Shown: positions 14,530-33,114 of the stretch, piece after piece | Layout: each line of letters opens with the position of its first letter | How positions within the stretch are numbered: the first letter of the stretch is position 1 | From: Alteromonas aestuariivivens | GTDB taxonomy: Bacteria > Pseudomonadota > Gammaproteobacteria > Enterobacterales > Alteromonadaceae | DNA: 64,000 bases | Assembly (NCBI RefSeq): GCF_003367475.1 | Contig: NZ_QRHA01000001.1 | Location: 310,001-374,000, forward strand | Direction of reading: 5' to 3' | Notes under the pieces: generated by a model | Told to the model about the DNA's origin: nothing | Seen by the model: only the letters and a program-made list of their open reading frames with translations | Database searches by the model: none | Translations under genes and position numbers: made by a program

Positions 14530-14538
14530 GCTGCCTCC

Positions 14539-16002
14539 TTAAAACGGACTTTCAATTTGGCTCATACCCACATAAACCGATTTGGTCTGGGTATAACTGT
14601 TAAGCGTTTCAACGCCGTTTTCCCGGCCGATACCGGACTGCTTGTAACCGCCCACAGGCATTTCAGCAGGTGAGTTGCCGTAACTGTTGATCCAACAGAT
14701 CCCGGCTTTTAGCTGGTGAATAACCCGATGGGCACGTTGAATGTTCGTACTAAATACGCCTGCCGCCAGACCAAGATCAGTGTTATTGGCACGTGCTATT
14801 ACGTCGTTTTCATCTTCAAACACCAACACACTCATTACAGGCCCGAAGATCTCCTCTTTGACAATGGTCATGTCGTCATGGCAATCGACAAACACCGTCG
14901 GCGCAACGAAGTAACCGTTTGGGGCTGATTCAGGAGATAAGGCATACCCACCGGTGAGCAATGTTGCCCCTTCGGCTTTACCTTTTTCGATGTAATCGAG
15001 TACCAGCTTCTGGTGCTTTTCGGAAATTAAAGCGCCCAGATTCACGTCCGGATCCAATGGATCGCCGGCGATAATGTTGTTTTCGGTGCGGGTCTTCAGC
15101 TCCGCCAAAAAGGCATCATAGATGTTTTTGTGCACATAGACCCGGGTACAGTTAGTACATATTTCACCCTGGGTGTAGAAGTTACCCAGCATGGCAGCAC
15201 TGACGGCCTGAGAGATATCCGCGTCATCAAAAACGAGCAGCGGTGATTTCCCCCCCAGCTCCATCGTGACTTCCTTCAGGTTCGAGGTAGCGCTTTGCAT
15301 CACTTTCTTGCCTGTACCCACCTCACCGGTGAAAGACACTTTTTCTATGTCGTGATGAGTGGTCAGCCATTGGCCGACGTTGGCGGCACCCTGAACCACA
15401 TTGAAAACACCGGCAGGCATGCCTGCTTCGATAAAGATCTCCGCGAGTTTGATTGCTCCCATCGGAGTTTCTTCTGACGGCTTGAAAATCATGGCGTTGC
15501 CCGCCGCCAGTGCAGGACCCGATTTCCAACATGCAATCTGAAGCGGATAATTCCATGCACCAATACCGGCACAAATGCCAAGTGGTTCACGGCGGGTGTA
15601 GAAGAAATCTTGCCCCACGGTTTGCTGGGAGCCCAGTTGGGCAGGAGCTAAGCCTGCGAAGTACTCTATGACATCAGCACCGGTTTCCACGTCTACGCAA
15701 TCAGCTTCCTGGATCGGTTTGCCCGTATCCAGGACCTCCAGTCGAGCCAGCTCATTGTTGCGCTCACGCAGCAGTGCAACGGCTTTGAGTAAGATGCGAC
15801 TGCGCTCCACTGGGCTCATGGCTGACCATTGTGCAAAGCCCTTTTTTGCACTTTCGATAGCTTGAGCTAGTACATATTCATCGGCTTCCTCAACATGATA
15901 GATCTCTTGCCCGGTCGCCGGATTCTTGACTGAAAAAGTGTTGCCGCCGTTATTCGCGACAAACTGGCCGTGTATGAAGTTCTGATATACTGGCAGGGTC
16001 AT
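14539..16002 (-). CDS. betB: betaine aldehyde dehydrogenase
   Basis: This is a cytoplasmic NAD(P)-dependent aldehyde dehydrogenase that converts betaine aldehyde to glycine betaine, completing osmoprotectant synthesis or feeding betaine catabolism. Its 487 residues carry the standard ALDH landmarks: the PWNYPLQ-type substrate/cofactor stretch ([12 protein letters not shown], about 157-168), the glutamate motif [12 protein letters not shown] (about 252-263) and the nucleophilic cysteine in [14 protein letters not shown] (about 278-291). The start is 1 base downstream of the betI stop, indicating translational coupling. Length and motif spacing match E. coli BetB. Confidence 0.95.
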
Positions 16003-16003
16003 A

Positions 16004-16594
16004 TTAGTCTCCGCTCAATGAAATTAAGTTCTCGATGTAGTGCTTTGCGAGTTGCTCCGCCTCTTTGAACTCCGTTTCATTGGCCTGGCTTAATACCGCC
16101 CGAAGCCACAACCCATCTATCATGCCGGCACTGAGTTTGGCGGCTTTTTGCGCGTCAGATTTTGACATCAACGAATTCAACGAAAACAGTAGGTTGCTAT
16201 AAAGACGTTGGGCGTTGATACGTTGCAATCGCCCCAACCGAGGGGCATGCATCGACTGAGCCCAGAAACTCAACCAGGTTTTGGTTGAACGGGCGCTTTG
16301 CTGCACGACGGAAAAGTTTGCCTCAACAATAAACATAAGACGCTCTTTTGGCGTACAGCCATTTTGGGTCTTTGATACGAGCGTGGTACGCAAGTTGTTC
16401 AGCAAAAATCTCACTGTGGCCTCGAGCAGGCCGTCTTTACCACCAAAATAATGGCTGATGATTCCCGACGATAGTCCGGCTCGTTTGCTGATACTGTTAA
16501 TGGTCGTAGCGTGTAAGCCCAACTCTGCAACTGACTCCAATGTCGCCTCAATAAGCTGTTGGCGACGTATGGGCTCCATTCCTACTTTTGGCAT
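16004..16594 (-). CDS. betI: TetR-family choline-responsive repressor
   Basis: A 196-residue DNA-binding repressor that in E. coli represses the bet genes and is relieved by choline. The N-terminal helix-turn-helix is at about residues 22-50 ([20 protein letters not shown], then [16 protein letters not shown]). The C-terminal ligand domain follows, with the [18 protein letters not shown] segment usual in BetI. The ATG at 16594 gives [18 protein letters not shown], the normal BetI start. It is the first gene of the operon, and a matching palindromic operator sits 10 bases before its start codon, consistent with autoregulation. Confidence 0.94.
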
Positions 16595-17205: not shown

Positions 17206-17493
17206 TTATTTCTGCAGGTGGAAACATTCCACCTGTTTGTCGGCTACCAGCGGGCCGACCCTGTCTGAAAAGGTTTTGAAATGTTCGGTTTCAAGGTGAT
17301 ATTCAAAATCGGCTTTTGAGTTGTAGATCTCGTACAGAAACACCAGATTGGGGTTGTTTTCACTCACCGCAACATCAAACACGGTGCAGGCTTCTTCGTT
17401 GGAAAGAGAGTCCTCAGCCTGTTTGAGCATTGCCGGCATAAACGCCTGCATCTGGCCTTCATTGATAAGAAATTTCACGGTTACAATGTACAT
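17206..17493 (-). CDS. ABM-fold protein (antibiotic biosynthesis monooxygenase/quinol monooxygenase-like)
   Basis: A 95-residue ferredoxin-like alpha/beta-barrel protein. The start MYIVTVKFLINEG and the C-terminal half (LVFLYEIYNSKADFEYHLET, then EHFKTFSDRV) match the dimeric ABM superfamily, which includes YgiN quinol monooxygenase, LsrG and sugar mutarotases of similar fold. It is the last gene of the kinase/decarboxylase operon, 8 bases after the decarboxylase gene. That placement suggests it acts on an intermediate or product of the same pathway, perhaps as an isomerase, epimerase or mutarotase rather than an oxygenase. Its real reaction cannot be told from sequence. Confidence 0.72.
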   Translation of the reverse strand: MYIVTVKFLINEGQMQAFMPAMLKQAEDSLSNEEACTVFDVAVSENNPNLVFLYEIYNSKADFEYHLETEHFKTFSDRVGPLVADKQVECFHLQK

Positions 17494-17501
17494 ACGTATC
17501 C

Positions 17502-18140
17502 TTACTTTTTGAATTTATTAATTAATTCCTGGATTTCGCTGTCAAGCAAGCGGTTGGCCGGTTTGCCCTGCAACATAAGCGCAATTTTGCAGCTTTCTTC
17601 CAGTTCTTCCATACCATAAACGCATTTTTCCACGTCGGGGGCCGAAACAATGGGGCCATGGTTGGCCATGATTATCCCGGGGTGACTGGCGGCAATCGCG
17701 CCTACAGCTTCTGCCAGTTTGTCGTCGCCCGGCGCAAAGTAGGGCACCATGGCAATGGCCCCAAGGCGCATGGTCAGGTACGGGGTGTAACAGGGAACAC
17801 AATTGGTGACATCGTCACACGGCAGGCATGAAAGGGCAGTGGCGTGTGTGGAGTGCAGATGGATCACGCAGGTGTCATCGGGGCGTTGGTCATAAATGGC
17901 TTTGTGCAGGCGAAATTCTTTCGACGGCGGCGCACCTTTTAACAGGGTGCCGTCGTGACTGACCACCGACAACTCGTCCGCTTCCAGAAAACCGAAACAG
18001 GTGTTGGTGGGGGTCATTACCCAGCCCTCAGCGATGCGGATGCTCATATTGGCAGACGCACCGGACGTCAGGCCGCGGTCAAAAATGGACTTGGCATAGG
18101 TGACAATTTTTTGTTTGGCAATGTGTTCGGTTAACAACAT
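17502..18140 (-). CDS. otnC: class II aldolase-family 3-oxo-tetronate 4-phosphate decarboxylase
   Basis: A 212-residue zinc-dependent enzyme of the class II aldolase/L-ribulose-5-phosphate 4-epimerase (AraD) family. Metal-binding histidines are visible in HLHSTHATAL (about residues 97-106) and the NHGP motif at about 164-167. In the acid-sugar pathways known from DUF1537 work, the enzyme at this position (OtnC) decarboxylates a 3-oxo-tetronate 4-phosphate to dihydroxyacetone phosphate or an isomer. Its start overlaps the 3' end of the kinase gene by 10 bases, so the two are translationally coupled. L-fuculose-phosphate aldolase would be the alternative family member, but the kinase partner favours OtnC. 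Confidence 0.82.
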   Translation of the reverse strand: MLLTEHIAKQKIVTYAKSIFDRGLTSGASANMSIRIAEGWVMTPTNTCFGFLEADELSVVSHDGTLLKGAPPSKEFRLHKAIYDQRPDDTCVIHLHSTHATALSCLPCDDVTNCVPCYTPYLTMRLGAIAMVPYFAPGDDKLAEAVGAIAASHPGIIMANHGPIVSAPDVEKCVYGMEELEESCKIALMLQGKPANRLLDSEIQELINKFKK

Positions 18141-19423
18141 GATAAGGTTTCCAATGCTTGAAAGAAAAAGTCTTGCTGGCCGAAATTGCCCGATTTGAGG
18201 GCCAGATTTATCGGCTGTTCACCAGGGGTTTGTACCATGGGCACGCCGGGGGCGATGGATTTGCCAATATAGAAGCTGTCCACACCCAGTGCATTGACCA
18301 CCGCGCCCGAAGTTTCTCCGCCCGCCACTACAAAATTGCGCACACCCAGCTGGTCACTGGCTGCAATGGCCAGCGCACCGAAGGTTTGTTCTATGAGGCC
18401 AGCGATGAATTCGGCGCCATAGTTCTGATGATTTTCAGCAATGATGTCGGGAGCTGCGGTGGCTGTGACCAGCGGAGCCCGGTCAATTGCCGAAGCCAGC
18501 CATGTAATAATGGAATCCACCGACTGTTCGCCGGTCACCAGTTTTGCCGGGTCAAGCTCCATGACCGGGTGACTGGTGCGATACGCGGCAACCTGCTTTT
18601 GGGTCATGGCAGAACAGCTGCCGCTCAGCACCAGCGTTGGTGCGGCGATGGGCTGCACGCTACTGGTTACTTCTGTCAGGTTTCCGCCACAGTCCTCAAA
18701 CTCTTTTCCCAAACCGATGGCCAGCCCAGAGCCGCCGGTAATCAGTGTGAATGATGACAGGCATTCGCCAATGCACTTGAGATGGTCGGTACTGAGGGCA
18801 TCCAGCACCAGATAATGATGGTTCACGCGTTGGGTTTCCAGCGCTTCTGTTAATGCTCCCGGGCCTTGTTCAACGACCTGGCTTGGGATCGATACCGCTT
18901 TACCTGTGCCTTGGGCTTCCATCATCCGGACCAGTGAAGAATCCTTCATTGGTGTCAGCGGGTGGTCCTTCATTGGGCTTTCATGCAGCAACTGGTCAAA
19001 CACAAACAGATGGCCCTGATACACCGTACGGCCGTTAACCGGCAATGCCGGGCAAACTACGGTAGAGGCTGCATTAAGCTTTGACATCAGTGCGTCGATA
19101 ACCGGCCCGATATTGCCCTCTGGCGTTGAGTCAAATGTTGAGCAATATTTGAAGTAATATTTAGCGCATCCCAGTGACTGCAGCACCTCCAGGCAGGCCA
19201 GTGACAGTTCAACTGCGTCCTGGACTGGGATGGTTCTGGATTTAACCGCAATCACAACGGCATCCACGTCCTTGATATTGGCAATTTGCTGAGGCGTAGG
19301 CAGCCCATTAACCTGAATGGTGCGCAAACCGCTTGCAACCAGGAAGCTGGCCAAATCTGTGGCACCGGTAAAATCGTCAGCTATGCACCCCAGCCAGGGG
19401 GTAGAGTCAGTCACTTTGTTCAT
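18131..19423 (-). CDS. otnK: four-carbon acid sugar kinase (DUF1537 family)
   Basis: A 430-residue cytoplasmic ATP-dependent kinase that phosphorylates a sugar acid, classically a 3-oxo-tetronate at O4. The N-terminal substrate domain opens with CIADDFTGATDLASFL (about residues 13-28), the family hallmark. The C-terminal nucleotide-binding domain has LSGSCSAMTQ (about 268-277) and FVVAGGETSGAVV (about 365-377). It is the first gene of the minus-strand operon kinase-decarboxylase-ABM. It is divergent from a GntR regulator, with a 120-base shared promoter region. The exact acid is open: the accompanying enzymes differ from the described threonate and erythronate clusters. Confidence 0.88.
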   Translation of the reverse strand: MNKVTDSTPWLGCIADDFTGATDLASFLVASGLRTIQVNGLPTPQQIANIKDVDAVVIAVKSRTIPVQDAVELSLACLEVLQSLGCAKYYFKYCSTFDSTPEGNIGPVIDALMSKLNAASTVVCPALPVNGRTVYQGHLFVFDQLLHESPMKDHPLTPMKDSSLVRMMEAQGTGKAVSIPSQVVEQGPGALTEALETQRVNHHYLVLDALSTDHLKCIGECLSSFTLITGGSGLAIGLGKEFEDCGGNLTEVTSSVQPIAAPTLVLSGSCSAMTQKQVAAYRTSHPVMELDPAKLVTGEQSVDSIITWLASAIDRAPLVTATAAPDIIAENHQNYGAEFIAGLIEQTFGALAIAASDQLGVRNFVVAGGETSGAVVNALGVDSFYIGKSIAPGVPMVQTPGEQPINLALKSGNFGQQDFFFQALETLSCC

Positions 19424-19445
19424 ATTTCTTTTACTTGCATTAGCA

Positions 19446-19465
19446 ATACATTAACTTATACATTA
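19446..19465. promoter_or_regulatory. direct repeat ATACATTA x2 in the divergent promoter
   Basis: ATACATTA occurs at 19446-19453 and again at 19458-19465, a 12-base period, in the region between otnK and the GntR gene. It may be a regulator site or part of overlapping -10 elements. Evidence is limited to the repeat itself and its position. Confidence 0.35.
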
Positions 19466-19543
19466 TATTATTTGAAGTTTACAGTACCTTGTTCGCTGTA
19501 ACAGCGGATTAGTGTTCAACGTGCGAATTGAAAGGGTAAAGCC

Positions 19544-20197
19544 GTGTCATTAAGTCAGCGTGCTTACGAAGAATTACGGGAAAAAATTCTCAACAACGAG
19601 TTAAAACCCGGGCGCTTCTTTCTGGAAAAAGAGCTGGCTGAGCTGTTGGGGATCAGCCGTACTCCGCTCAAGGAGGCGCTGGTTAAGCTGGAAAATGAGG
19701 GGTTGATCAAAGTGCAGCCCCGCCACGGTATGCAGGTGTTGCCTCTGTCTGCAGATGACATGCAGGAGGTCTATCAGATTATTACCGCTCTGGAGTGCGA
19801 AGCGGTGTCGGTTATTGCCAACAAGGGTTTGCAGGACGAGGAAATTGGCCAGCTTGAACAGACCGGAATAGCCATGGCCGAAGCACTGGAGCGGGACGAC
19901 CTCGAAGCCTGGGCCAAAGCGGATGAAGATTTTCACCGCCTGCTACTGGCCTTTTGCGGCAATGCCCGCTTGAAGCAGACCGTATTGAATTATTGGGATC
20001 TTGCCCATCGCGCCCGTTACTTTACCTTGCAGTTACGGGACAAGCCGGTTAATTCAACGCTTGATCATCAGCAGGTGATTGAAGCGATAAAACATAAAGA
20101 TCCGCAAAAAGCGGTATCGATACATCGCCAGCACCGTGTGAACGGCGGCGCCAGTTTAGTCCGGATCATCAGACAATATCGGCTGGATCATTTGTGA
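19544..20197 (+). CDS. GntR-family regulator with FCD domain
   Basis: A 217-residue transcription factor. The N-terminal winged helix-turn-helix (about residues 1-68) carries the GntR motif LAELLGISRTPLKEALVKLE. The C-terminal FCD ligand domain (about 78-210) has the metal-ligand pattern D-x3-H in DEDFHRLLLAF and a later HRQHR. FCD regulators of this FadR subgroup usually sense sugar acids or other carboxylates and repress adjacent catabolic genes. It is divergent from the kinase operon and 28 bases upstream of the dehydrogenase gene, so it probably controls both arms of the acid-sugar locus. Confidence 0.88.
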   Translation: MSLSQRAYEELREKILNNELKPGRFFLEKELAELLGISRTPLKEALVKLENEGLIKVQPRHGMQVLPLSADDMQEVYQIITALECEAVSVIANKGLQDEEIGQLEQTGIAMAEALERDDLEAWAKADEDFHRLLLAFCGNARLKQTVLNYWDLAHRARYFTLQLRDKPVNSTLDHQQVIEAIKHKDPQKAVSIHRQHRVNGGASLVRIIRQYRLDHL

Positions 20198-20225
20198 TAT
20201 CCAACGGAAACAGGAAACAGCAACA

Positions 20226-21329
20226 GTGAAATCAGAATTCTCAATAACCGTATTACCCGGAGATGGTATTGGCCATGAAGTGACGCCAGTGTGTCTGGAA
20301 TTGCTGGACAAGGTCTGCAAGCAGGTTGGGGGGGTAAGCCTGAATTACAGCTCATTTGCTGCGGGCGCAGTGCATTACAAGGAAACCGGTGTTTCACTGC
20401 CCGAAGAAGCCTTGCAGCACGCGTTTGACAGCGATGCCACATTGTTGGCGTGCATGGGAATGCCGAGCATTCGTTATCCGGACGGGCGGGAAATTGCCCC
20501 GCAACTGGAACTGCGGGAAAAAATGGATTTGTTCGCCGGCGTCAGGCCGGTGAAAACCATGCCAGGATTGCCGTTACCGCTTACCTCAGAGAAGGCGCAG
20601 AATCTTGATTTCATTCTGATACGTGAGAGCACCGAGGGCCTGTTTGCCAGCCGGGAAAAGTTCAAAATTGAGGGCGAAGGTGCTGATGAGGCAGCGTACG
20701 ACACCCAGAAAATCAGCCGTAAAGGCTGTGAACGCCTGTTTGACTTCGCCTTCGAACTGGGTCGCCAGCGCAGGAATGAAGGATACAAGGGCCTGGTAAC
20801 CTGTGTTGATAAAGCAAACGTGTTAGGGTCGTTTTATTACATGCGGCAAATCTTCGACGAAGTGGCAGCGAAAAATCCCGATGTGGATAACAACCACGTA
20901 TATGTCGACGCCGCGGCCCTGCAGCTGGTGGGGCGGCCGTGGCAGTTTGATGTGATTGTCACCGAGAACATGTTCGGTGACATTCTGTCGGATTTGGGCG
21001 CTGGCCTAATGGGCGGCATGGGCATGGCACCCTCAGCGGATATTGGCATTGAAAAAGCGGTGTTCCAGCCTTGCCACGGTACGGCACCCGACATCATTGG
21101 CCAGGGTAAAGCCAACCCGACCGCGATGTTTTTGTCAGCCGCGATGATGTTACGCTGGCTGGGCAACAAGCACGATAATTCCAGTGCCATTGAGGCCGCG
21201 CGTAAAATCGACACGGCAGTTGAGAATGCCTATGCCACCGGTACCTTGTTGCCTTATGAACTTGGAGGCACTTCCGGTACCGAGGCGATTTCGTCGTTGG
21301 TGTTCGCAGAACTGGACAAACTGGCCTGA
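20226..21329 (+). CDS. isocitrate/isopropylmalate dehydrogenase-family enzyme (tartrate/acid-sugar dehydrogenase-like)
   Basis: A 367-residue NAD-dependent beta-hydroxyacid oxidative decarboxylase. The N-terminal VLPGDGIGHEV, the substrate-region RESTEGLFASRE (about residues 136-147), and the signature VTENMFGDILSDLGAG (about 245-260) define the family. It is in a catabolic locus with its own GntR regulator and a carboxylate transporter, with no leuA, leuC or leuD nearby. It is therefore unlikely to be LeuB; tartrate/D-malate dehydrogenase is the closest known type. In this context it may oxidise, and perhaps decarboxylate, a sugar acid or its phosphate, a job done by PdxA2 or LtnD/DenD in known DUF1537 pathways. 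The substrate is unknown. Confidence 0.85.
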   Translation: MKSEFSITVLPGDGIGHEVTPVCLELLDKVCKQVGGVSLNYSSFAAGAVHYKETGVSLPEEALQHAFDSDATLLACMGMPSIRYPDGREIAPQLELREKMDLFAGVRPVKTMPGLPLPLTSEKAQNLDFILIRESTEGLFASREKFKIEGEGADEAAYDTQKISRKGCERLFDFAFELGRQRRNEGYKGLVTCVDKANVLGSFYYMRQIFDEVAAKNPDVDNNHVYVDAAALQLVGRPWQFDVIVTENMFGDILSDLGAGLMGGMGMAPSADIGIEKAVFQPCHGTAPDIIGQGKANPTAMFLSAAMMLRWLGNKHDNSSAIEAARKIDTAVENAYATGTLLPYELGGTSGTEAISSLVFAELDKLA

Positions 21330-21403
21330 CTAAGCCGATGCCCGGGGGAGTTTTTCTTACCGGCAGGATTGGCAGGTTACAAAAAATGATTCGGAGTAGC
21401 ACT

Positions 21404-22408
21404 ATGAAGAAGATCATTCTACCGGCGCTGATTATGGCGAGTGTCATCGCCACTCTGGCCCACGCCGCGCGGCCTTATCCGGTACGCCCAATCACCAATA
21501 CGGTGGTGTGGTCGGCAGGTGGGGGCACAGATGCGGTGAATCGTATGATCATGGCTGAAATGGCCAAAGTGCTCGACACCCGCATCAACGTGGTCAATAA
21601 AACCGGCGGCATAGCCGGCTCCATTGGCATGAATTCTGTGCTTAGCAAGCGCCCGGATGGCTACAACCTGGTGGGCATATCCAGTTCTAACGTGGTGGCA
21701 GCGGTGAACGGAGGCTGGAACGAGCGTTTTGATGTCTGGTCGCCGTTCATCGTCGGCAGTTCGCCGGACGTCATTTCGGTCAATACTGACTCACCAATAA
21801 CATCACTGCAGGACCTCGTGGCTCATCAGGCTCAATCACAACAGGCGTATAAAGCCGGGGCCGGCGGAACGGGGGGCATTCACCATCTGTATCTGCTGGA
21901 GCTGGCACGTGTCAGTGGCGTAGATTTTCAGTTTGTCCCTTACCCTGGCTCGGCTCCCTCTCAAACGGCCGCCATCACTGGCGAAGTGGATGTGGTGATC
22001 ACCTCCATGGCAGAGCAGGCCCAGTTGATCCGCGGTGGCAAATTGCGCCCGCTGGCAATGCTGCACCCTGAACCATTTGAGCTGGAAGGTGTTGGTACTA
22101 TTCCCAGTGCGTTCGGCCTTTACCCTGAGCTAGCGGAGCACTTGCCTCTCAGCCAGGCCATTGGTTTTGCGGTTCACCAGAATGCGCCTGACGACGTAAA
22201 AACAAAACTGGGTAAAGCCTTTGAAGCCGCCATGCAGTCGCCGGTGGTAAAGCAATGGGCCAGGGACAATTACTATCAGTTGTCTGGCAAGCATGGTGAA
22301 GCGGCCCGCGACGAGTTTGCTGCACTGGAGTCGTATTTTACCTGGACCTTGCAGGGGCTGGGTTCGAACAAGTTTTCACCAGACAAATTTGGCATCCCCA
22401 AACCCTGA
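21404..22408 (+). CDS. tctC: TctC/Bug-type periplasmic solute receptor
   Basis: This is the periplasmic binding protein of a tripartite tricarboxylate transporter. The open frame extends upstream to 21338, but the ATG at 21404 has a GGAG ribosome site and yields a proper signal peptide (MKKIILPALIMASVIATLAH). The mature protein of about 310 residues has the Bug landmarks: the N-terminal RPYPVRPITNTVVWSAGGGT segment, NKTGGIAGSIG in the ligand cleft, and the later YKAGAGGTGGIHHL loop. Such receptors bind carboxylates through two water-bridged aspartate-free loops, and paralogues differ in ligand. It is followed by its TctB and TctA partners, so the system is complete. The ligand is probably the acid metabolised by the neighbouring enzymes. 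Confidence 0.87.
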   Translation: MKKIILPALIMASVIATLAHAARPYPVRPITNTVVWSAGGGTDAVNRMIMAEMAKVLDTRINVVNKTGGIAGSIGMNSVLSKRPDGYNLVGISSSNVVAAVNGGWNERFDVWSPFIVGSSPDVISVNTDSPITSLQDLVAHQAQSQQAYKAGAGGTGGIHHLYLLELARVSGVDFQFVPYPGSAPSQTAAITGEVDVVITSMAEQAQLIRGGKLRPLAMLHPEPFELEGVGTIPSAFGLYPELAEHLPLSQAIGFAVHQNAPDDVKTKLGKAFEAAMQSPVVKQWARDNYYQLSGKHGEAARDEFAALESYFTWTLQGLGSNKFSPDKFGIPKP

Positions 22409-22464
22409 TTTTGGGTATCAGGGAGCTGGTTCGCCACTATGAGTAGACAGAGATTGGGTAACCC

Positions 22465-23277
22465 ATGGAACAACAGTCAAACGCGCCGTCGACAGTTCTG
22501 ACTGCCGGGTCGGCAGCTGATGCGCAGCAGGATTTTAAGGTCGCGCTGGTGTTGCTGGCGGTTGCCGTGGCATTGCTGGTTCATACTCTGGGCTTTCCGA
22601 TGTCAGGCAGTTATGGCGGGGTAGATAACCAGTGGTTTGTTTCTCCGGCGTTGTTCCCATTACTGGTGTGCGGTCTGTTGGTAATTTGCAGTGGAATGTT
22701 GCTTTATAAAGCTACCCGAAAGCAGGGTTTCAGGGGCTTTGGTGAACTGCGAGGGTGGCTGGGTGACTGGCGTAATGAGCGTATAAAAGACCGCTGGTAC
22801 GTGATTGGCTTGTTGCTGGTTTACGTGTATGTGTATATTCCTTCCACCGACTTCTATCTTGCCTCCGTTGTATTTCTGTTGTCCCTTACCAGTCGTTTTT
22901 ATTACCCGATGGTTAACGGTCTGAGCCGCTCAAGCACGTTGCATCTGGTGCTGGCCCTATGTCTGATTGCCGTCAAATTGAACGTCAACGTATCAGAAGA
23001 TACCCATTGGCTGAGCATAAACTACGATGAGGATGCCATCCGGTACAGCGACTTGAGTATGCTGATGGCATTGATGTGCCTGCTGACCTTAAGTGTGTGC
23101 TTTCCTCAGAACAAGGATCGCAAACGTGCGGTGATTCAGGTTCTGGTGGTTCTGCTGGTTCCACTGTTGTTGGTTTGCACTTTTAACTTCCTGCTGTATG
23201 TACCTATGCCGGTGGAATACGGTACGGTGAGTGATTTCCTGAATTATCTGGTATACGACGTACTGGCTTTCCAGTAG
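22465..23277 (+). CDS. tctB: TctB-type small membrane subunit of the tripartite transporter
   Basis: A 270-residue membrane protein with about six hydrophobic segments. It has the layout of the TctB (DUF1468) family: an N-terminal helix (VALVLLAVAVALLVHTLGF), the short motif PALFPLLVCGLL (about 66-77), then later helices. It is longer than many TctB proteins (about 150-200 residues) because of an extra C-terminal pair of helices. It lies between tctC and tctA, as in other complete systems. TctB is required for transport, but its mechanism is not well defined. Confidence 0.8.
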   Translation: MEQQSNAPSTVLTAGSAADAQQDFKVALVLLAVAVALLVHTLGFPMSGSYGGVDNQWFVSPALFPLLVCGLLVICSGMLLYKATRKQGFRGFGELRGWLGDWRNERIKDRWYVIGLLLVYVYVYIPSTDFYLASVVFLLSLTSRFYYPMVNGLSRSSTLHLVLALCLIAVKLNVNVSEDTHWLSINYDEDAIRYSDLSMLMALMCLLTLSVCFPQNKDRKRAVIQVLVVLLVPLLLVCTFNFLLYVPMPVEYGTVSDFLNYLVYDVLAFQ

Positions 23278-23288
23278 TCAGGAGGCTT

Positions 23289-24836
23289 GTGATGCTGGAG
23301 CAATTTTCCCACTTCTTTTCAACACTCTTTGCCCTGGCAACGAGCCCGACCAATCTGCTGGTGGTTTTCGGAGCCAGTTTTGTCGGCATCATTTTTGGTT
23401 CTATGCCCGGGCTCACAGCGACTCTGGGAATCGCATTGTTAACATCTCTGACCTACGGTTTTGGGCCGGATGTGGCCCTGCTTGCTCTGCTCGGGTTATA
23501 CGTGGGGGCGATATATGGTGGGTCCTACCCGGCAATTCTCATCAACATACCGGGCACGCCTGCGGCAGCGGCAACGGCGCTGGATGGTTACCCACTCACA
23601 CAGAAAGGCCAGGCCGGGAGGGCGCTGGGGCTTACTACCACTGCGTCGTTTATTGGCACCCTGATTGGCCTGTTGTTCCTGGTTACCCTGTCACCTTTTA
23701 TCGCCAGTATGGCGTTGCAGTTTACCTCCTGGGAATTCTTTTTGCTGGCCCTGTTCGGCATTGTTATCAGCGGCACCCTTACCAGCCCGGGCACGGTGCT
23801 CAAGGGCTGGATAGCCGGATTGATAGGGTTGTTCCTGGCAACTATCGGGCGGGACTCTCTGCAGTATTTTCCCCGCTACACGGCAGGCTTCAGCGAACTG
23901 GATGCCGGGCTTGAGATTGTGCCTGTGCTCATCGGCGCGTTTGGCATCCCGCAGGTGATTCGGGTGTTGTCAGAGCGGCGGTCACTGGCCGAAGCGCCTA
24001 AACTTGGGCGGATTCTGCCGGAATTATCTGCCATCACCCGAAACATAAAACATATTTTTCGCTCATCAACCATTGGGGTTGGCGTTGGTTCTGTACCGGG
24101 GATTGGTGAGGATATCGCCGGTTGGGTGTCGTACAGCACGGCCAAAAATGCCAGTACGCCTGAACAGCAGAAGGAATTCGGCAAGGGCTCTGAAGCAGCA
24201 ATAGTGTCGTCAGAAACAGCCAACAATGCCTGTATTGGCGGCGCCTTGATCCCGTTGCTGACCCTTGGGATCCCTGGCAGCCCGCCTGCGGCCATGTTGC
24301 TTGGGGCGTTGCTGCTGCACGGCATTACCCCGGGCCCCTCTATTGAAGTAGACCATCCGAATTTTCTGCTCGAAGTGACAGCCATTATGGTGCTGGCGTC
24401 TTTCGCCATGTGGGCAAATGGTATGTTGCTGGCAAAGCAGGTGGTGAAACTGCTGACCATCCCGGCACCGCTGTTTATTCCGGTAGTCGGGATACTGTGT
24501 ATTTTGGGCGGGTATGCGCTCGGCTTGAGTATTTTCAATTTGTACATTCTGATACCGGTTGGCATCGCGGCCTATTTTCTGGGAGAAATGGATTTTCCCA
24601 TTGCACCCATGGTGATAGGCCTGGTGCTGGGTGGCATGGCAGATGAAAGCCTGCGGCGTGCGTTAATGTTGAGTGAGGGCAGCTTCCTGCCCATGTTTGA
24701 ACGTCCGGTTGCAGTGATTTTGCTGGTGATCATTGGCTGCTTCATTGTTAATCAGATACCGGCGGTAAGAACCAGGACCACCTCTTTCTGGGCTGGGCTG
24801 TTTTCACGGCTTGCACGCAAAAGCCCGGTGGTCTGA
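23289..24836 (+). CDS. tctA: TctA-type large membrane subunit of the tripartite transporter
   Basis: The 515-residue channel-forming permease, with about 11-12 helices. The duplicated TctA motifs are clear: FVGIIFGSMPGLTATLGIAL (about 37-56) and VGSVPGIGEDIAGWVSYSTA (about 268-287), together with ALLGLYVGAIYGGSYPAILI and NACIGGALIPLLTLGIPG. It uses the membrane ion gradient to import the carboxylate delivered by TctC. The start is 11 bases after tctB. The length is that of a normal TctA (about 500). Confidence 0.94.
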   Translation: MMLEQFSHFFSTLFALATSPTNLLVVFGASFVGIIFGSMPGLTATLGIALLTSLTYGFGPDVALLALLGLYVGAIYGGSYPAILINIPGTPAAAATALDGYPLTQKGQAGRALGLTTTASFIGTLIGLLFLVTLSPFIASMALQFTSWEFFLLALFGIVISGTLTSPGTVLKGWIAGLIGLFLATIGRDSLQYFPRYTAGFSELDAGLEIVPVLIGAFGIPQVIRVLSERRSLAEAPKLGRILPELSAITRNIKHIFRSSTIGVGVGSVPGIGEDIAGWVSYSTAKNASTPEQQKEFGKGSEAAIVSSETANNACIGGALIPLLTLGIPGSPPAAMLLGALLLHGITPGPSIEVDHPNFLLEVTAIMVLASFAMWANGMLLAKQVVKLLTIPAPLFIPVVGILCILGGYALGLSIFNLYILIPVGIAAYFLGEMDFPIAPMVIGLVLGGMADESLRRALMLSEGSFLPMFERPVAVILLVIIGCFIVNQIPAVRTRTTSFWAGLFSRLARKSPVV

Positions 24837-24879
24837 ATGTGCTGATCCTGTTGCTTGCTAAATCCCTTAAGGCGCTATT

Positions 24880-25908
24880 ATGTCTGATAATTTAACTGTG
24901 GTGTGTTCAGGAACCGGGTATTTCAGCCAGTTCCACTATGAAGCCTGGAACCGCTTACCGGGGGCAACGATTGTTGGAGTCAACAATCGCAATCGGGACA
25001 AAGCCATGGAATTTGCCCAAAGGTTCAACATTGGGGACTACGATAATGATCTGCAGCGCTTGCTCGAGCGCTGTAAACCGGACCTGGTGGATGTAATAAC
25101 CCCGCCGGAAACCCACCTCCAGGCGGTAAAAATTGCTGCCGGGCTGGGTATTGATGTGATTTGTCAGAAGCCATTTGGTGAAAACCTGGAACAGGCACAA
25201 GAGATGACCCGGATTGCCGCCGATGCGGGCATTAAACTCATCGTGCACGAAAATTTCCGCTTTATGCCCTGGTATCGCAAAATCAAGCAACTGCTTGATG
25301 AAAACAGGCTGGGCGAAGTTCTCAATGTGGAATTCAAGCTTCGCCCGGGAGACGGCCAGGGCCCCGAGGCCTACCTGGCGCGCCAGCCCTATTTTCAGCA
25401 AATGCCCAAGTTTCTGGTGCACGAAACCGCTATCCATCTGGTCGATACCTTTCGTTTTCTGTTCGGTGAACCTAATAATCTGTTCGCCAAGCTGCGCCGC
25501 TGCAACCCCCACATTAAAGGCGAGGATGCCGGGCTTATCCTGTTTGAATTTCAAAACCGCATTCAGGCGGTGTTCGACGGCAATCGCTTGCTGGACCACT
25601 GTGCCACTAATACCCGCCGTACCATGGGGGAAATGGAAATTGCCGGTACCCACGGGGAACTGCGCTTGAATGGCGAAGGGGGCATACTGCTGCGCGAATT
25701 TGGCCGCCAACAGTGGGTTGAACAGCCTTATGAATGGCGGGATCAGCACTTCGGGGGGGATTGTGTATTTAATACCATCGAGCACATAGCCGCACATTAC
25801 CTTACCGGCGCAGCGCTGGAAAATCAGGGCTTTGAGTACCTTAAAAACATCGAAATTGAACAGGCCATATATCATTCGGCGCACAGCGGAAACCTGATCG
25901 CCTTTTAA
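24880..25908 (+). CDS. Gfo/Idh/MocA-family NAD(P)-dependent oxidoreductase
   Basis: A 342-residue cytoplasmic dehydrogenase. The N-terminal Rossmann domain (about 1-125) starts VVCSGTGYFSQFHYEAW, a slightly unusual G-x-G-x-x motif. It has the family motif CQKPFGENLEQAQEM (about 95-109) with the catalytic-type lysine in the EKP-like position (here QKP). The C-terminal domain contains HETAIHLVDTFRFLFGEP (about 185-202), where the His-x3-His pair usually contributes to catalysis. Family members oxidise sugars, inositols or sugar acids; D-apiose dehydrogenase is one example in an acid-sugar route. Here it probably oxidises a sugar to a lactone or a sugar acid to a keto acid. It is followed by a lactonase gene. 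Confidence 0.88.
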   Translation: MSDNLTVVCSGTGYFSQFHYEAWNRLPGATIVGVNNRNRDKAMEFAQRFNIGDYDNDLQRLLERCKPDLVDVITPPETHLQAVKIAAGLGIDVICQKPFGENLEQAQEMTRIAADAGIKLIVHENFRFMPWYRKIKQLLDENRLGEVLNVEFKLRPGDGQGPEAYLARQPYFQQMPKFLVHETAIHLVDTFRFLFGEPNNLFAKLRRCNPHIKGEDAGLILFEFQNRIQAVFDGNRLLDHCATNTRRTMGEMEIAGTHGELRLNGEGGILLREFGRQQWVEQPYEWRDQHFGGDCVFNTIEHIAAHYLTGAALENQGFEYLKNIEIEQAIYHSAHSGNLIAF

Positions 25909-25951
25909 TGCGTTTTCGTTAACTGCCAGTGATTTTTTACAGGGACCAGTA

Positions 25952-26956
25952 GTGACCATGAATTACCCGCCAGCGTTAAACCTTAATGACATCACTTTTA
26001 CCGGCTCAGGTCTGGTGCGCCCGGAGTGTGTGCTGGCAACCGCCGCCGGCAATCTGTATGTATCCGACTTTCGTGGTGGTGTGAGCCGCATTGCGCCAGA
26101 TGGCCAGTGTACGTTCTTTGGCGGTGGTGAAGTGGCAGGGCGAGAGGATCCACCCGGTATTTTAAAGCCCAATGGTATTTGCTTGTTACCCGACGGCAGC
26201 TTTCTGGTCGCACATTTGGGTACGGCGGATGGGGGCGTTTATCGCATCGACCGTGAGCACAACATTGAACCCTGGTTACTGGAGGTTGAGGGGCAGCCCC
26301 TGCCACCGAGTAACTTTATTTATCTGGACCATCAGGGGCGCTACTGGCTAACGGTCAGTACCCGCCAGATCCCCAGGGCAAAGGGCTACCGCTCGGATGT
26401 TCAAGACGGGTTTATCGTGCTTATAGACCAGCACAGTGCCCGCATTGTGGCTGATAATATTGGTTACACCAACGAAGTGTATGTTACTCCCGATGGCAAC
26501 ACTCTTTATGTTAACGCAACTTTCAGTCGTGGAACCCTGCGCTACGACATTGACGCAAACAACAACCTTATTAATCCAACGCTCGCAGCCCAGTACGGGC
26601 AGGGTATCTATCCGGATGGCCTGACCATGGATACCGAGGGGTACCTATGGGTAACCAGCATTGTCAGCAACAGCGTAGTGCGGGTGAACCCGAATAGTGG
26701 TGAAACCCGGCTAATGCTGCAAGATGTGGATCAGGCGCATTTGCAATGGGTTGAGCAGGCATATCTGACCCATCAGATGGGCCGCCCCCATCTGGATAAC
26801 GTAAAAAGTGAACGGTTGAACAACATCAGTTCGCTGGCTTTTTCCGGCAACGATTTATCGAAAATAAACATGGGCTGTTTACTGGGGCAGCAGGTGGCCC
26901 AGATTGCTTCTGTGTATCAAGGCCTTAAACCCAGCCACTGGCATTTTGACGACTGA
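25952..26956 (+). CDS. SMP-30/gluconolactonase-like six-bladed propeller protein
   Basis: A 334-residue beta-propeller. Recurrent blade motifs are visible: NLYVSDFRGGVSRIAPDG, GICLLPDGSFLVAHLG, NEVYVTPDGNTLYVNATF and PDGLTMDTEGYLWVTSI. The Asn and Asp residues in NEVYVTPDG and YPDGLTMDTEG occupy positions that bind Ca in SMP-30 lactonases. No signal peptide is visible, so it is cytoplasmic. In this operon it most likely hydrolyses the sugar lactone formed by the preceding dehydrogenase. It is the last gene before a bidirectional terminator, closing the acid-sugar cluster. A strictosidine-synthase-like paralogue of other function is possible. Confidence 0.82.
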   Translation: MTMNYPPALNLNDITFTGSGLVRPECVLATAAGNLYVSDFRGGVSRIAPDGQCTFFGGGEVAGREDPPGILKPNGICLLPDGSFLVAHLGTADGGVYRIDREHNIEPWLLEVEGQPLPPSNFIYLDHQGRYWLTVSTRQIPRAKGYRSDVQDGFIVLIDQHSARIVADNIGYTNEVYVTPDGNTLYVNATFSRGTLRYDIDANNNLINPTLAAQYGQGIYPDGLTMDTEGYLWVTSIVSNSVVRVNPNSGETRLMLQDVDQAHLQWVEQAYLTHQMGRPHLDNVKSERLNNISSLAFSGNDLSKINMGCLLGQQVAQIASVYQGLKPSHWHFDD

Positions 26957-26973: not shown

Positions 26974-27013
26974 TAAAAAAGCCCTCCCGGTTTGGGAGGG
27001 CTGATTCATTTTT
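26974..27013. terminator. bidirectional rho-independent terminator
   Basis: The 9-bp stem AGCCCTCCC (26980-26988) pairs with GGGAGGGCT (26994-27002). An A-run lies before it and a T-rich run after it, so it can stop transcripts of both the lactonase gene and the convergent sulfatase gene. Confidence 0.93.
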
Positions 27014-27026
27014 GAATAGTAACCTT

Positions 27027-28466
27027 TTATTGCAGAATTTTTCTTTCCTTTACCGGGTACCAGTCGGTCAGTTTCTGTGACAAGCGCTCAACCAGTTCAG
27101 GGTGTTGTTCTGCGAGATTATGTTTCTCGTGTTCGTCTTCCAGCAGATTGTAGAGCCGTGGAGGAACCAAAACATCCTCGTGGTATTTCTGATAGGAGAC
27201 GTTCTCACCATCGTAGCTCAGGATCAGCTTCCATGGCCCTTCGATCACCCAGCGATAAAGCAGTGTAGCTTCCGGATTATTAAGATCACCCATATCATGG
27301 GCAAAGCCTTCTCCGAAAACGGTGTCACGCTCAATGGGCGTCTGCTGTTTCATATTGTCAAACAGGTTTAATCCTGGCAGTCCTTCCGGTACCTCAATGC
27401 CCGCAGCGCCCAAAATGGTGGGCAGAATATCAATACTGCTGATTGGCTCAGGGCGCATTTGCGCTTTCAACTGGCTTGGCAGCGAGAACATAATTGGGGT
27501 GCGCACACCGCTTTCTCCCGGGCTTTGCTTGGAGTGGGGTAAAAAGCCGTCGGTTTTGGTTGGGTTGGAAATCCACCCGTTGTCGGAAACGTACACTATC
27601 AGGGTGTTGTCCTTGAGGCCTTTTTGCTCCAGATGCTCCATCAGTTGTCCATTGGTTTCATCGAACCACTCGATCATCGCATAGTATTTGGCGATGGAAA
27701 TGGGCAGGCCTTTGTCGGTGTATTTTGCAAGAATACGCTCTGGTGGTGTGTGAGGGGTGTGCGGCATAAAGGGCGCATACCAGACTAAAAAGGGTTTGTT
27801 TTCAGCACTTACCCGGTCTACAAATTCAAAAATGGTGTCCAGCCCCTCACGGCCAATTTTTAGGCCGTCGTCACCATGGCGGCCACCTGGCTGAGGAAAG
27901 CCGCGGGTCATGCCTTCATCAAAGCCGCCGCGCTGATAGCTGCCTTCCCACCACTTGCCCGTTTGCAGGGACACGTAGCCTTTTTGCCTGAGCAGTTCCG
28001 GCAGGGTGTCCAACGTGTCGATTTTTGCAATGATTTCGCCACGTTGCTGCTGGTAAAGTTCGCCCTCTCTGCCGCCAGGCAGCAATCGGGAAGGATCGTT
28101 ACCGGTAATGCCGTGCTGCGATGCGTAGTAGCCTGTGGCGACGGTGGCCAGTGACGGGCGGCACAGTGAGGTGGGAACGTAGCCACGTTTGAACGTTACC
28201 CCTTCGTGGGCAATGTTATCCAGTGCTGGTGTTTTAACGATATCGTGGCCCATAAAGCCGTAGTCGTTCCAAGCGTGGTCGTCAGACAGTATGACAACAA
28301 TGTTGGGCGGCGGGGTATCCGAGATCGCTGCCGAGCTTGGCCCAGACTGTGTACTCGCGCTGGAACAGGCGCCCAGAGTCGCAACTGCCATCGAAAACAG
28401 AGCAATGCGCAATTTTTTGCCCAGATTATTGCAGGTGAATACATTTTTCTTTTGTAGGTAAAGCAT
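27027..28466 (-). CDS. lipoprotein sulfatase with non-canonical maturation motif
   Basis: A 479-residue type I sulfatase/alkaline-phosphatase-fold hydrolase that removes sulfate esters from a carbohydrate. The signal peptide ends in a lipobox-like TLGAC, so it is probably a membrane lipoprotein. Metal-binding residues appear early in VVILSDDHAWNDYG. The formylglycine region reads SLCRPSLATVATGYY with C102; the usual consensus is C-x-P-S/T-R, but here the fifth residue is Leu (C102-R-P-S-L106). Later KWWEGS, FMPHTPHTPPE and VSDNGW are typical. It is downstream of a GH105 gene on the same strand (75-base gap) and belongs to the carbohydrate locus. Whether the motif change alters maturation or marks a subfamily cannot be told here. 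Confidence 0.88.
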   Translation of the reverse strand: MLYLQKKNVFTCNNLGKKLRIALFSMAVATLGACSSASTQSGPSSAAISDTPPPNIVVILSDDHAWNDYGFMGHDIVKTPALDNIAHEGVTFKRGYVPTSLCRPSLATVATGYYASQHGITGNDPSRLLPGGREGELYQQQRGEIIAKIDTLDTLPELLRQKGYVSLQTGKWWEGSYQRGGFDEGMTRGFPQPGGRHGDDGLKIGREGLDTIFEFVDRVSAENKPFLVWYAPFMPHTPHTPPERILAKYTDKGLPISIAKYYAMIEWFDETNGQLMEHLEQKGLKDNTLIVYVSDNGWISNPTKTDGFLPHSKQSPGESGVRTPIMFSLPSQLKAQMRPEPISSIDILPTILGAAGIEVPEGLPGLNLFDNMKQQTPIERDTVFGEGFAHDMGDLNNPEATLLYRWVIEGPWKLILSYDGENVSYQKYHEDVLVPPRLYNLLEDEHEKHNLAEQHPELVERLSQKLTDWYPVKERKILQ

Positions 28467-28507
28467 TTACACTTCCTGATGGTTGACTTTATTACCAGTA
28501 TGCCCGC

Positions 28508-28523
28508 GCGTTAAAGTAAACGC
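28508..28523. promoter_or_regulatory. inverted repeat GCGTT-N6-AACGC before the sulfatase
   Basis: GCGTTAAAGTAAACGC lies in the 75-base gap upstream of the sulfatase start. Its AACGCATT half is shared with a perfect palindrome upstream of the preceding GH105 gene. The AACGC end is 57 bases from the start codon in both cases, suggesting a common regulator. Confidence 0.45.
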
Positions 28524-28541
28524 ATTTGCCGACATGGTTAT

Positions 28542-29747
28542 TTATTCGGATTTTGTTTGTTGTAGAGCCAGGTCGTAGATCATGGAACCTGCCAGCAAAA
28601 AGGCGCCTACGCCATAAAGTTGCGAATCTTCGTAAGTCACCACATCGGGTTTGTCATTCACGCCCTGAACCCAGCCAAATTTGCCGTCCGGGTGCAATGA
28701 ACTCTCTAGCACCGTCCAGCCTTTTACAATGTAGGGAAGGTAGTCAGATTGCCCAAGTAAGCCCTGATTGACGCCCCAGGCCAGACCGTAGACAAAAAAT
28801 GCGGTACCGCTGGATTCAGGCTCGGCGTAGTTTTCACCGCCCAGCAGTGACATGGGCCAGGAGCCGTCCTGCTTTTGCAGTTTCACCAGCGTATTGGTGA
28901 GTTCAATGTAGAGGTTTTCATAGTAGGCCCGGTATGGGTGATCCTCAGGTATGTATTCCAGGGTATTGACAACACCTGCGTACACCCAGCCAACCCCACG
29001 GGACCAGAAAACCGGCTCACCGAATTTTCCGGTACGGGTAAAGTAGCGGGAGTCACGAAAGACCAGGCCGGTTTTGTCATCTCTGAGGTAATCGATGGTT
29101 GCCTTGAATTCCTTGTGGGCGTAGTCCATATACTTCGGATCGCCGGTTACCTGAGTCAGACCAAACCAGGTGGGTGGAGCCATAAACAGGGCATCTGCCC
29201 AGCACCAGCGAACCTGGCAGGGGTGAACATTGTCTTCGTTGCGCCCGTCAACAAACTCCAGGCTGGTATCGGCGGCTCGCTCGATGATTGGATCAAACGC
29301 TTCGATAAGTGGTGCGATAACGTCGGGGTCGGGATGACGTTCGTAGAACCACAGGTTCATCTGGCCAATAACCTGATCGTCTGCAAAGTACTTTACCCGC
29401 CCCAGACGCCAGTCGTGATCATTGCCAACATAACCTATCCAGGTTTCGTAAAAGGGGTTTTCCGAACGCTCTGCAACTTTGGTCAGGCCTTTGTAAAACG
29501 CACCCTGGATCCAGCGCCCATAAGCCTCAGAGCCTTTTCTGGCCCGCCCCACGTGAGGCATGTAAGAGGTATGGGCAATTTGCCAGTTAGCGGCTTTTTC
29601 AATGCTCTGTAAAACCTGTTGCGGTTGTGGCAGGGAGGCTGTCGGTTCATCTTTGGCTCTGCTGAGCTGGCTCTGAGTCTTTGCTGAACAGGCAGCTAAT
29701 AATGCCATTGTCATGACAACGGAAACGGTACGCAAAAATGGCTTCAT
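28542..29747 (-). CDS. GH105/GH88-type unsaturated uronyl hydrolase, lipoprotein
   Basis: An (alpha/alpha)6-barrel hydrolase that removes the 4,5-unsaturated uronic acid left at the non-reducing end by polysaccharide lyases (YteR/unsaturated rhamnogalacturonyl hydrolase family). The open frame begins at 29792, but the ATG at 29747 gives MKPFLRTVSVVMTMALLAAC, a lipoprotein signal with lipobox LLAAC. In that numbering D185 in RWCWADALFMAPP is the likely catalytic acid. Other family motifs are YFADDQVIGQ, FRDSRYF, FWSRGVGWVYAG, and the C-terminal DSQLYGVGAFLLA. Length (401 residues) is normal. A paralogue lies at 38326. The sulfatase follows, so the pair may act on a sulfated oligouronide. Precise substrate (ulvan, rhamnogalacturonan or glycosaminoglycan-like) is not decided. 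Confidence 0.88.
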   Translation of the reverse strand: MKPFLRTVSVVMTMALLAACSAKTQSQLSRAKDEPTASLPQPQQVLQSIEKAANWQIAHTSYMPHVGRARKGSEAYGRWIQGAFYKGLTKVAERSENPFYETWIGYVGNDHDWRLGRVKYFADDQVIGQMNLWFYERHPDPDVIAPLIEAFDPIIERAADTSLEFVDGRNEDNVHPCQVRWCWADALFMAPPTWFGLTQVTGDPKYMDYAHKEFKATIDYLRDDKTGLVFRDSRYFTRTGKFGEPVFWSRGVGWVYAGVVNTLEYIPEDHPYRAYYENLYIELTNTLVKLQKQDGSWPMSLLGGENYAEPESSGTAFFVYGLAWGVNQGLLGQSDYLPYIVKGWTVLESSLHPDGKFGWVQGVNDKPDVVTYEDSQLYGVGAFLLAGSMIYDLALQQTKSE

Positions 29748-29794
29748 ATCCCTAAACCCCCGGTTTTCAAATGTGTTCCTTTGCGTAGGCAAAA

Positions 29795-29804
29795 GCGTTA
29801 ACGC
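29795..29804. promoter_or_regulatory. palindrome GCGTTAACGC before the GH105 gene
   Basis: A perfect 10-bp palindrome with AA before and ATT after (AAGCGTTAACGCATT), 48-57 bases upstream of the start at 29747. It looks like a LacI/GalR-type operator and shares a half-site with 28508-28523. No LacI-type gene is in the window. Confidence 0.45.
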
Positions 29805-29931
29805 ATTGAAGCAGATTTATAACAATTCGTTGACGTGGTGTGAAGGGTTTTGTGATTGTTTTTTGTTTAATTATGACTATTTGTGATTGTATTGGGTTGT
29901 TTGTGGTTGCTTTGGGCGACGGTAACGGGCA

Positions 29932-29969
29932 TAAAAAAATGCGCATCAGCAACAGGGGCTGATGCGCAT
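29932..29969 (-). terminator. rho-independent terminator of the TonB receptor gene
   Basis: ATGCGCATCAGC (29939-29950) pairs perfectly over 12 bp with GCTGATGCGCAT (29958-29969). On the minus strand the stem is followed by a run of seven T, 21 bases past the stop of the receptor gene. It separates the receptor transcript from the GH105-sulfatase transcript. Confidence 0.95.
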
Positions 29970-29990
29970 TCACTATGACAAAAGGTCGAA

Positions 29991-33011: not shown

Positions 33012-33090
33012 TGTGTTGTTCCCCGTCTACGTGTTCTCAGATAAAAACTTATACACAAAATAAACCATTATCAAACAAAATTTAAACAAT

Positions 33091-33114
33091 TGTGAGTGAA
33101 GTTGATACAATTTG
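33091..33114. promoter_or_regulatory. 24-bp motif shared by TonB receptor and GH2 promoters (copy 1)
   Basis: TGTGAGTGAAnTTGATnCA followed by TTG occurs here and again at 35861-35884; 20 of 24 positions are identical. Both copies precede minus-strand genes of the same carbohydrate locus in the same orientation. It is a candidate operator or conserved promoter element. Confidence 0.55.

Follow-up and report, generated by a model that had tools for sequence, protein, structure and literature searches.

A putative tetronate-catabolism locus in Alteromonas aestuariivivens in which an isopropylmalate dehydrogenase-like enzyme and an ABM-fold protein may stand in for LtnD and OtnI

The closest described system to the locus reported here is the four-step LtnD–OtnI–OtnK–OtnC route for L-threonate and D-erythronate (ygbJKLM in Escherichia coli). 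According to PMC12540250, an OtnC of the Aldolase_II type is tied to this four-step route via 3-oxo-tetronate, whereas a three-step bypass (LtnD, 2-OtnK and 2-OtnC; Guo et al. 2024, as described there) is free of OtnI and uses an OtnC of the F_bP_aldolase type. We analysed a 64,000-nucleotide stretch of Alteromonas aestuariivivens DNA (assembly GCF_003367475.1, contig NZ_QRHA01000001.1, positions 310,001–374,000; hereafter, the window) in which ten genes at 17206–26956 combine OtnK and OtnC with an isopropylmalate dehydrogenase (IPMDH)-like enzyme, an ABM-fold protein, a transporter (TctCBA), a Gfo/Idh/MocA dehydrogenase, an SMP-30-like lactonase and a GntR/FCD regulator. On the basis of sequence comparisons, we consider it moderately probable that the locus encodes the catabolism of a tetronate (four-carbon aldonate) through a variant of the DUF1537 3-oxo-tetronate pathway, with the IPMDH-like and ABM-fold proteins replacing LtnD and OtnI.

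In the proposed route, TctCBA would import the acid and/or the Gfo/Idh dehydrogenase would oxidise the matching aldose to a lactone, which the SMP-30 protein would open. The IPMDH-like enzyme would then oxidise the tetronate to 2-oxo-tetronate using NAD(P) and a metal, with CO2 retained; the ABM-fold protein would shift the carbonyl to give 3-oxo-tetronate; and OtnK would phosphorylate this intermediate at O4 before OtnC decarboxylates it to dihydroxyacetone phosphate. Both stand-in activities, the oxidation at C2 rather than C3 and the role of the Gfo/Idh and SMP-30 proteins are steps that we infer. The substrate may be L-threonate or D-erythronate, given the preference of the IPMDH-type family for 2R substrates. 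An open-reading-frame check and family searches found all ten genes to be intact and of the families that an initial annotation of this DNA had given them:

17206..17493, minus strand: ABM-fold protein, candidate 2-oxo/3-oxo-tetronate isomerase (OtnI substitute); PF03992, 56.3 bits
17502..18140, minus strand: OtnC, Aldolase_II type; NF043034, 242.7 bits against a cut-off of 250
18131..19423, minus strand: OtnK, 3-oxo-tetronate kinase, DUF1537 (SBD_N/NBD_C); NF043035, 533.6 against 350 bits
19451..19466, divergent promoter region: operator-like site TTAACTTATACATTAT, three mismatches relative to TTAATGTATACATTAA
19544..20197, plus strand: GntR/FCD regulator, proposed controller of both arms; PF00392, PF07729
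20226..21329, plus strand: IPMDH-like dehydrogenase (Tyr to Phe, Asn to Gly), candidate tetronate dehydrogenase in place of LtnD/DenD; Iso_dh PF00180, 296.9 bits, residue signature and tree
21338..22408, plus strand: TctC solute receptor, whose real start codon may lie further in; PF03401
22465..23277, plus strand: TctB; PF07331
23289..24836, plus strand: TctA; PF01970, 432.8 bits
24880..25908, plus strand: Gfo/Idh/MocA dehydrogenase, proposed aldose 1-dehydrogenase; PF01408, best PDB sequence 5uhw
25952..26956, plus strand: SMP-30-like lactonase (SGL); PF08450, residues E25, N174 and D222
26980..27002, seen on both strands: terminator-like stem past the plus-strand genes, ten pairs (seven GC) and a T-rich tail

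The kinase and decarboxylase indicate the type of pathway. OtnK exceeded the cut-off of the 3-oxo-tetronate kinase model and scored far under those of the D-threonate kinase (DtnK; NF047819, 123.2 against 450 bits) and of OiaK, also a DUF1537 member (121 against 700). Given this kinase type, oxidation should precede phosphorylation, and the order put forward in the initial annotation (phosphorylation, then oxidation) is probably wrong. OtnC scored slightly below its model cut-off, with the second-best family at 91.5 bits; as it is of the Aldolase_II type and not the F_bP_aldolase bypass type, a source of 3-oxo-tetronate is required, and OtnC is the expected decarboxylase of the locus. The host genome (99.83% complete) had no match at E ≤ 1e-60 to the models for LtnD (NF043037) or OtnI (NF043033), the DenD model and PdxA2 not having been searched genome-wide; the best OtnI-model match at E ≤ 0.001 was partial (91.7 bits, cut-off 325). 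The earlier view that the gene set is unlike the described routes thus holds for LtnD and OtnI, and the set is conserved elsewhere; its PdxA2 part lies outside this genome-wide search.

The IPMDH-like protein carries a residue signature that sets it apart from the decarboxylating enzymes of its family. In an alignment and tree of 100 sequences, which included the window protein, LeuB and DmlA, 73 sequences (among them the window protein) had Phe at the position of the catalytic Tyr and Gly for the Asn of the ‘AN(L/V)RP’ motif; the remaining 27, including LeuB and DmlA, kept both Tyr and Asn, and no sequence was mixed. The 73 Phe/Gly sequences formed one side of a single branch (support 99/90), corresponding to one change on the tree. 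The window protein retains Lys196, Asp228, Asp252 and Asp256 together with R97, R107 and R133, residues with established roles in the IPMDH family; the three arginines of IPMDH hold the beta-carboxylate. The title of Aktas and Cook 2009, as given in the reference list of PMC8468904, assigns the acid–base chemistry of these oxidative decarboxylases to a Lys–Tyr pair. Loss of the Tyr therefore fits oxidation without decarboxylation, leaving CO2 loss to OtnC, and speaks against an order in which the IPMDH-like enzyme itself decarboxylates. The enzyme may thus oxidise a tetronate without decarboxylating it and so replace LtnD.

This protein fell under the cut-off of every one of the 16 NCBIfam models that it matched. 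It scored 265.6 against 353.2 bits in the LeuB equivalog test, with Phe in place of the catalytic Tyr, and 249.3 against 470.4 bits with the tartrate/D-malate dehydrogenase model TIGR02089. A role in leucine biosynthesis was ruled out, because a distinct LeuB is encoded elsewhere in the host genome (509.2 bits, over the cut-off). The structure model of the protein (mean pLDDT 76.4, residues 136–151 below 50) was too weak near F140 and was not used.

The gene is rare among the relatives of the host. Within the order, the IPMDH-like gene (E ≤ 1e-80) occurred in 5 of 247 genomes, the window's own included, and in none of six sampled congeners. In two genomes from another family of the order (L009 and L010), all ten genes recur with an identical divergent arrangement, and a Paraglaciecola contig (L013) has nine of the ten, the GntR gene not being in that stretch; the arrangement is therefore not due to chance. 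A scan of a genome collection for the gene kept 80 loci of at least 586 confirmed stretches. Sixteen Tyr-type loci (L077–L092) were treated separately, 15 of them having in common neighbour clusters that were read, without annotation, as leucine genes. The set ascertained through the IPMDH-like gene comprised 69 loci (the window, four genomes of the order and L013–L076), of which 66 were Phe-type and three Tyr-type (L057, L073 and L075). OtnK, OtnC, Gfo, SMP-30 and ABM genes accompanied the dehydrogenase in seven of the 69; one further locus had this set without SMP-30 and another had it without ABM, two had OtnK and ABM, one had OtnK alone and 19 had other partial sets. LtnD was found near one locus (94 bits) and OtnI near three, the OtnI neighbourhood counts being based on E. 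coli YgbM alone. OtnI matches of about 40–100 bits opposite the IPMDH gene were taken as antisense artefacts of a run-on open reading frame in the first OtnI profile. OtnI-like genes beside the Phe-type IPMDH in L024, L025 and L035 looked supportive but were not used, since OtnK (E ≤ 1e-60) is missing from the genomes of L024 and L025. The transporters beside the module vary (Tct, TRAP with DctP and DctM, and ABC with a sugar-type receptor), which is compatible with uptake of acids and sugars alike.

A survey that started from OtnK, made to avoid the bias of ascertainment through the IPMDH-like gene, screened 398 genomes of the phylum, 81 of which were positive, and 369 genomes of the class, with 14 positives. 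It yielded 106 distinct OtnK places, 100 of which were examined; the other six were the window, L011 and four that were left out. LtnD lay near 57 of the 100, OtnI near 69, the IPMDH-like gene near six, ABM near six, and IPMDH-like and ABM genes together near five (p = 5e-7 for their co-occurrence). LtnD and OtnI were both absent from all seven loci holding either gene; by Fisher tests, the result was the same for the IPMDH-like and the ABM sets (LtnD in 0/6, p = 0.005; OtnI in 0/6, p = 0.0006). Of the 100 surveyed loci (L138–L237), another 21 had none of LtnD, OtnI, ABM and IPMDH nearby, 18 with OtnK and OtnC and three with OtnK alone; they represent further unexplained variants.

At the level of whole genomes, OtnK was present in 19 of 22 IPMDH-like genomes chosen because module genes lie nearby and in 19 of 30 others examined (pooled, 38 of 52, including the one Tyr-type genome, L057). 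Among Phe-type genomes without OtnK in the fetched IPMDH locus, 17 of 28 carried it, as opposed to 81 of the 398 phylum genomes; L057 was excluded from this comparison as Tyr-type and L011 because its OtnK is in the locus. Of 30 module genomes, 24 had the ABM type at ≥95 bits; of 30 genomes with classical LtnD–OtnI–OtnK loci, one did, or four when the threshold was E ≤ 1e-15. Seven of the 30 module genomes had contributed rows to the ABM model, and 17 of the other 23 match it; six of the 30 had been picked from the survey for ABM or IPMDH, and in one of these six, G698, the short contig showed no IPMDH-like gene. Each of the six module genomes that lacked ABM (G506, G249, G255, G257, G258 and G260) had an OtnI-model match of at least 246 bits, so that none of the 30 lacked both; such matches may include hydroxypyruvate-isomerase-like proteins and were over the cut-off in just 6 of the 30. 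Matches to the LtnD and OtnI models were both absent (E ≤ 1e-60) from 5 of 30 OtnK-bearing genomes (the host, G000, and G137, G055, G247 and G252), and all five have the ABM gene and OtnK.

These comparative data indicate that the ABM-fold protein, for which the initial annotation proposed no function, is likely to be the OtnI substitute. Its sole NCBIfam match was NF007791, the model of the LsrG isomerase (E = 4.6e-7; 30.2 bits, below the cut-off of 135). LsrG is the P-DPD isomerase, which shifts a carbonyl between adjacent carbons, and the OtnI reaction is of the same type. A structure model of high confidence (pLDDT 96.9) matched 148 chains at E ≤ 0.001 in Foldseek; LsrG ranked 8, 18, 20 and 32 among the 50 matches listed, including 2gff and 3qmq (E. 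coli; TM 0.90, 20% identity), amid many ABM proteins. In L069 (4044–4724), the ABM protein has a long C-terminal extension, which represents either a fusion or an over-long frame.

A palindrome, TTAATGTATACATTAA, was first spotted in the promoter regions of window-type loci. When scanned at up to three mismatches, it gave 23 matches in 17 of the 69 IPMDH-ascertained loci versus four when mononucleotide-shuffled sequences were scanned. Module genes accounted for 21 of the 23, two of these falling within a mechanically extended GntR frame. No match was found in the 16 Tyr-type loci at the same stringency. In the survey, the site was present in all six IPMDH-positive loci and in 3 of the 94 others (p = 7e-8). 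The window site is weak, its first base lying 28 bases from where otnK begins and 93 from where gntR begins. The GntR protein may control both divergent arms through such putative TTAATGTATACATTAA-like sites, a pairing of regulator and site that we infer. One of the three other survey loci with the site is L234, a classical LtnD–OtnK–OtnC–OtnI locus in which an exact TTAATGTATACATTAA (about position 10161) precedes ltnD by 10 bases, a hint of a common effector.

For the upstream steps, a lead-in from tetrose through lactone to tetronate by the Gfo/Idh and SMP-30 proteins is plausible. The SMP-30 protein exceeded the PF08450 cut-off (78.4 against 26.3 bits), and its E25, N174 and D222 are near-invariant (≥93%) in 16 sequences; Glu, Asn and Asp are the metal ligands of SMP-30. 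SMP-30 was near one of the six IPMDH-positive survey loci and Gfo near five, which makes the lactonase the more expendable of the two. The closest PDB sequence to the Gfo/Idh protein was 5uhw (127.6 bits, E = 5e-36), which has merely the name ‘Oxidoreductase protein’ in the PDB and which we take to be an apiose dehydrogenase structure, a likeness that favours the D-apiose route weighed below.

Several observations weigh against the pathway as we propose it. The fold search does not discriminate function, as LsrG was not singled out among similar matches; co-occurrence and exclusion are thus the main grounds for proposing an isomerase. ABM presence and OtnI absence were not significantly associated across the 30 module genomes (p = 0.55), 19 of the 25 with an OtnI-model match carrying ABM too. 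LtnD was over its cut-off in 14 of the 30 and adjoined an OtnK in seven of these 14 (G248, G258, G262, G267, G603, G605 and G790), mostly at a second locus; in G258 and G262 that OtnK is the only one of the genome, so the IPMDH-like gene there is no stand-in for a missing LtnD. In such genomes it may instead supply the pathway with material from a different substrate. Of the six IPMDH-positive survey genomes, four come from a single family, two of these (L213 and L216) being sister species, and the independent events thus number fewer than six. Of 14 OtnK loci lying away from the IPMDH-like gene in genomes that have it, one had the palindrome, that one being the module contig itself. To the same side belong three findings that bear on the alternatives: the retained arginines, two loci with IPMDH and OtnK and no ABM nearby (L022 and L189), and 38 of the 69 IPMDH-ascertained loci, many on short contigs, with no sought partner gene in the fetched DNA.

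The alternative that survives best, which we regard as unlikely, is that the IPMDH-like enzyme oxidises at C3 with the carboxylate in the three-arginine pocket and delivers 3-oxo-tetronate directly to OtnK, the ABM-fold protein fixing C2 configuration or tautomers or having a minor part. R97, R107 and R133 would fit oxidation at C3, with the carboxylate in the beta position relative to the hydroxyl concerned, a reaction that calls for no isomerase; the Tyr-to-Phe change would shield a 3-oxo acid from CO2 loss, and L022 and L189 have no ABM nearby. Against this, ABM tracks the module across genomes, and the six module genomes without it each have an OtnI-model match. Less probable is that the IPMDH-like enzyme and the Gfo/SMP-30 pair serve an unrelated acid (for example, a tartrate-like dicarboxylate) and share just regulation with OtnK, OtnC and ABM. 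The partnerless loci and the LtnD beside the sole OtnK of G258 and G262 would be in keeping with this, as would the separation of the module halves in some genomes (L019 and L127 in G252); the enrichment of OtnK in Phe-type genomes, the shared TTAATGTATACATTAA site and the absence of LtnD from the IPMDH-positive survey loci argue otherwise. More doubtful still, and rejected on the kinase type, is the phosphorylation-first order of the initial annotation, on the reading that OtnK acts on the acid and the IPMDH-like enzyme both oxidises the product and removes its CO2, as happens in the DtnK/PdxA2 route for D-threonate: IPMDH, PdxA and their relatives classically decarboxylate following oxidation, but the catalytic Tyr is absent from the 73 Phe-type sequences and OtnC would be redundant. 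A D-apiose route (Gfo as apiose dehydrogenase, then lactonase, oxidoisomerase, OiaK and OiaC) has very little probability and was rejected, since the kinase is far from OiaK and an oxidoisomerase was identified among none of the ten genes, even though a set of dehydrogenase, lactonase, kinase and decarboxylase is described in PMC11747546.

The layout of the locus suggests two divergent operons flanking a 120-base promoter region. On the minus strand, the ABM and OtnC genes are 8 bases apart and otnC and otnK overlap by 10 bases; the plus-strand intergenic gaps are 8–56 bases. Across the region, terminator-like stems (13 versus a shuffled mean of 13.3) and sigma-70-type promoter sites (5 versus 8.7) showed no excess. 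Beyond the terminator-like stem, a probable polysaccharide-degradation cluster (sulfatase, GH88, TonB receptor and GH2; 27027–35639, minus strand) is convergent with the operon; its inclusion in the unit was rejected on account of the intervening stem, a judgement made with these genes not sought in related loci. On the other side, at 12877–16594 on the minus strand, a GMC oxidoreductase, an aldehyde dehydrogenase and a TetR protein with a BetI-type C-terminal domain are probably choline-to-betaine genes.

If the preferred reading, tetronate catabolism with both LtnD and OtnI replaced, is correct, functions could be assigned to an IPMDH-like clade and an ABM clade that family models place loosely, the latter from a family usually labelled monooxygenase. 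It would also provide a natural case of a decarboxylating dehydrogenase family shedding its decarboxylation step, explain tetronate use by bacteria that have OtnK but neither LtnD nor OtnI, and make the candidate regulatory site TTAATGTATACATTAA available for regulon mapping. Similar gene sets are present in several other bacterial groups. Tentatively, and with less confidence than in the locus itself, we suggest that they may represent an overlooked, widespread branch of sugar-acid metabolism in which both steps before OtnK are replaced, by a Tyr-less, formerly decarboxylating beta-hydroxyacid dehydrogenase and an ABM oxo-tetronate isomerase; this branch would feed four-carbon aldoses and aldonates, possibly including the ascorbate breakdown products L-threose and L-threonate, into glycolysis. 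Among the open-access papers listed for DUF1537, 3-oxo-tetronate, OtnK/OtnC/OtnI/LtnD, and isopropylmalate dehydrogenase with threonate, which do not include the primary DUF1537 paper (Zhang et al. 2016), no title or abstract start describes such a variant, and nothing there joins tartrate dehydrogenase with erythronate.

Compared with known systems, the locus shares with the D-threonate DtnK/PdxA2 route a DUF1537 kinase and a dehydrogenase of related fold; its kinase, however, is far under the DtnK cut-off and its dehydrogenase belongs to Pfam Iso_dh, not PdxA. The ABM-fold protein has the fold of LsrG but differs from it in sequence identity and falls well short of its model cut-off. The IPMDH-like protein is of the same family as IPMDH/LeuB, DmlA and tartrate dehydrogenase and keeps the Lys and Asp residues and the three Arg, whereas it differs in the Tyr-to-Phe and Asn-to-Gly changes. 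The D-apiose/apionate OiaK/OiaC route, as presented in PMC11747546, likewise has a dehydrogenase, lactonase, kinase and decarboxylase, but the kinase here is not OiaK and no oxidoisomerase was identified among the ten genes. The three-step bypass, as described in PMC12540250, is also without OtnI but combines an F_bP_aldolase-domain OtnC with LtnD, in contrast to the Aldolase_II-type OtnC and lack of LtnD here. The locus is most like the E. coli ygbJKLM route, with which it has in common OtnK, an Aldolase_II-type OtnC and the predicted end product dihydroxyacetone phosphate, and from which it differs in having the IPMDH-like and ABM-fold proteins in place of LtnD and OtnI and, in addition, the Gfo/Idh, SMP-30 and TctCBA genes.

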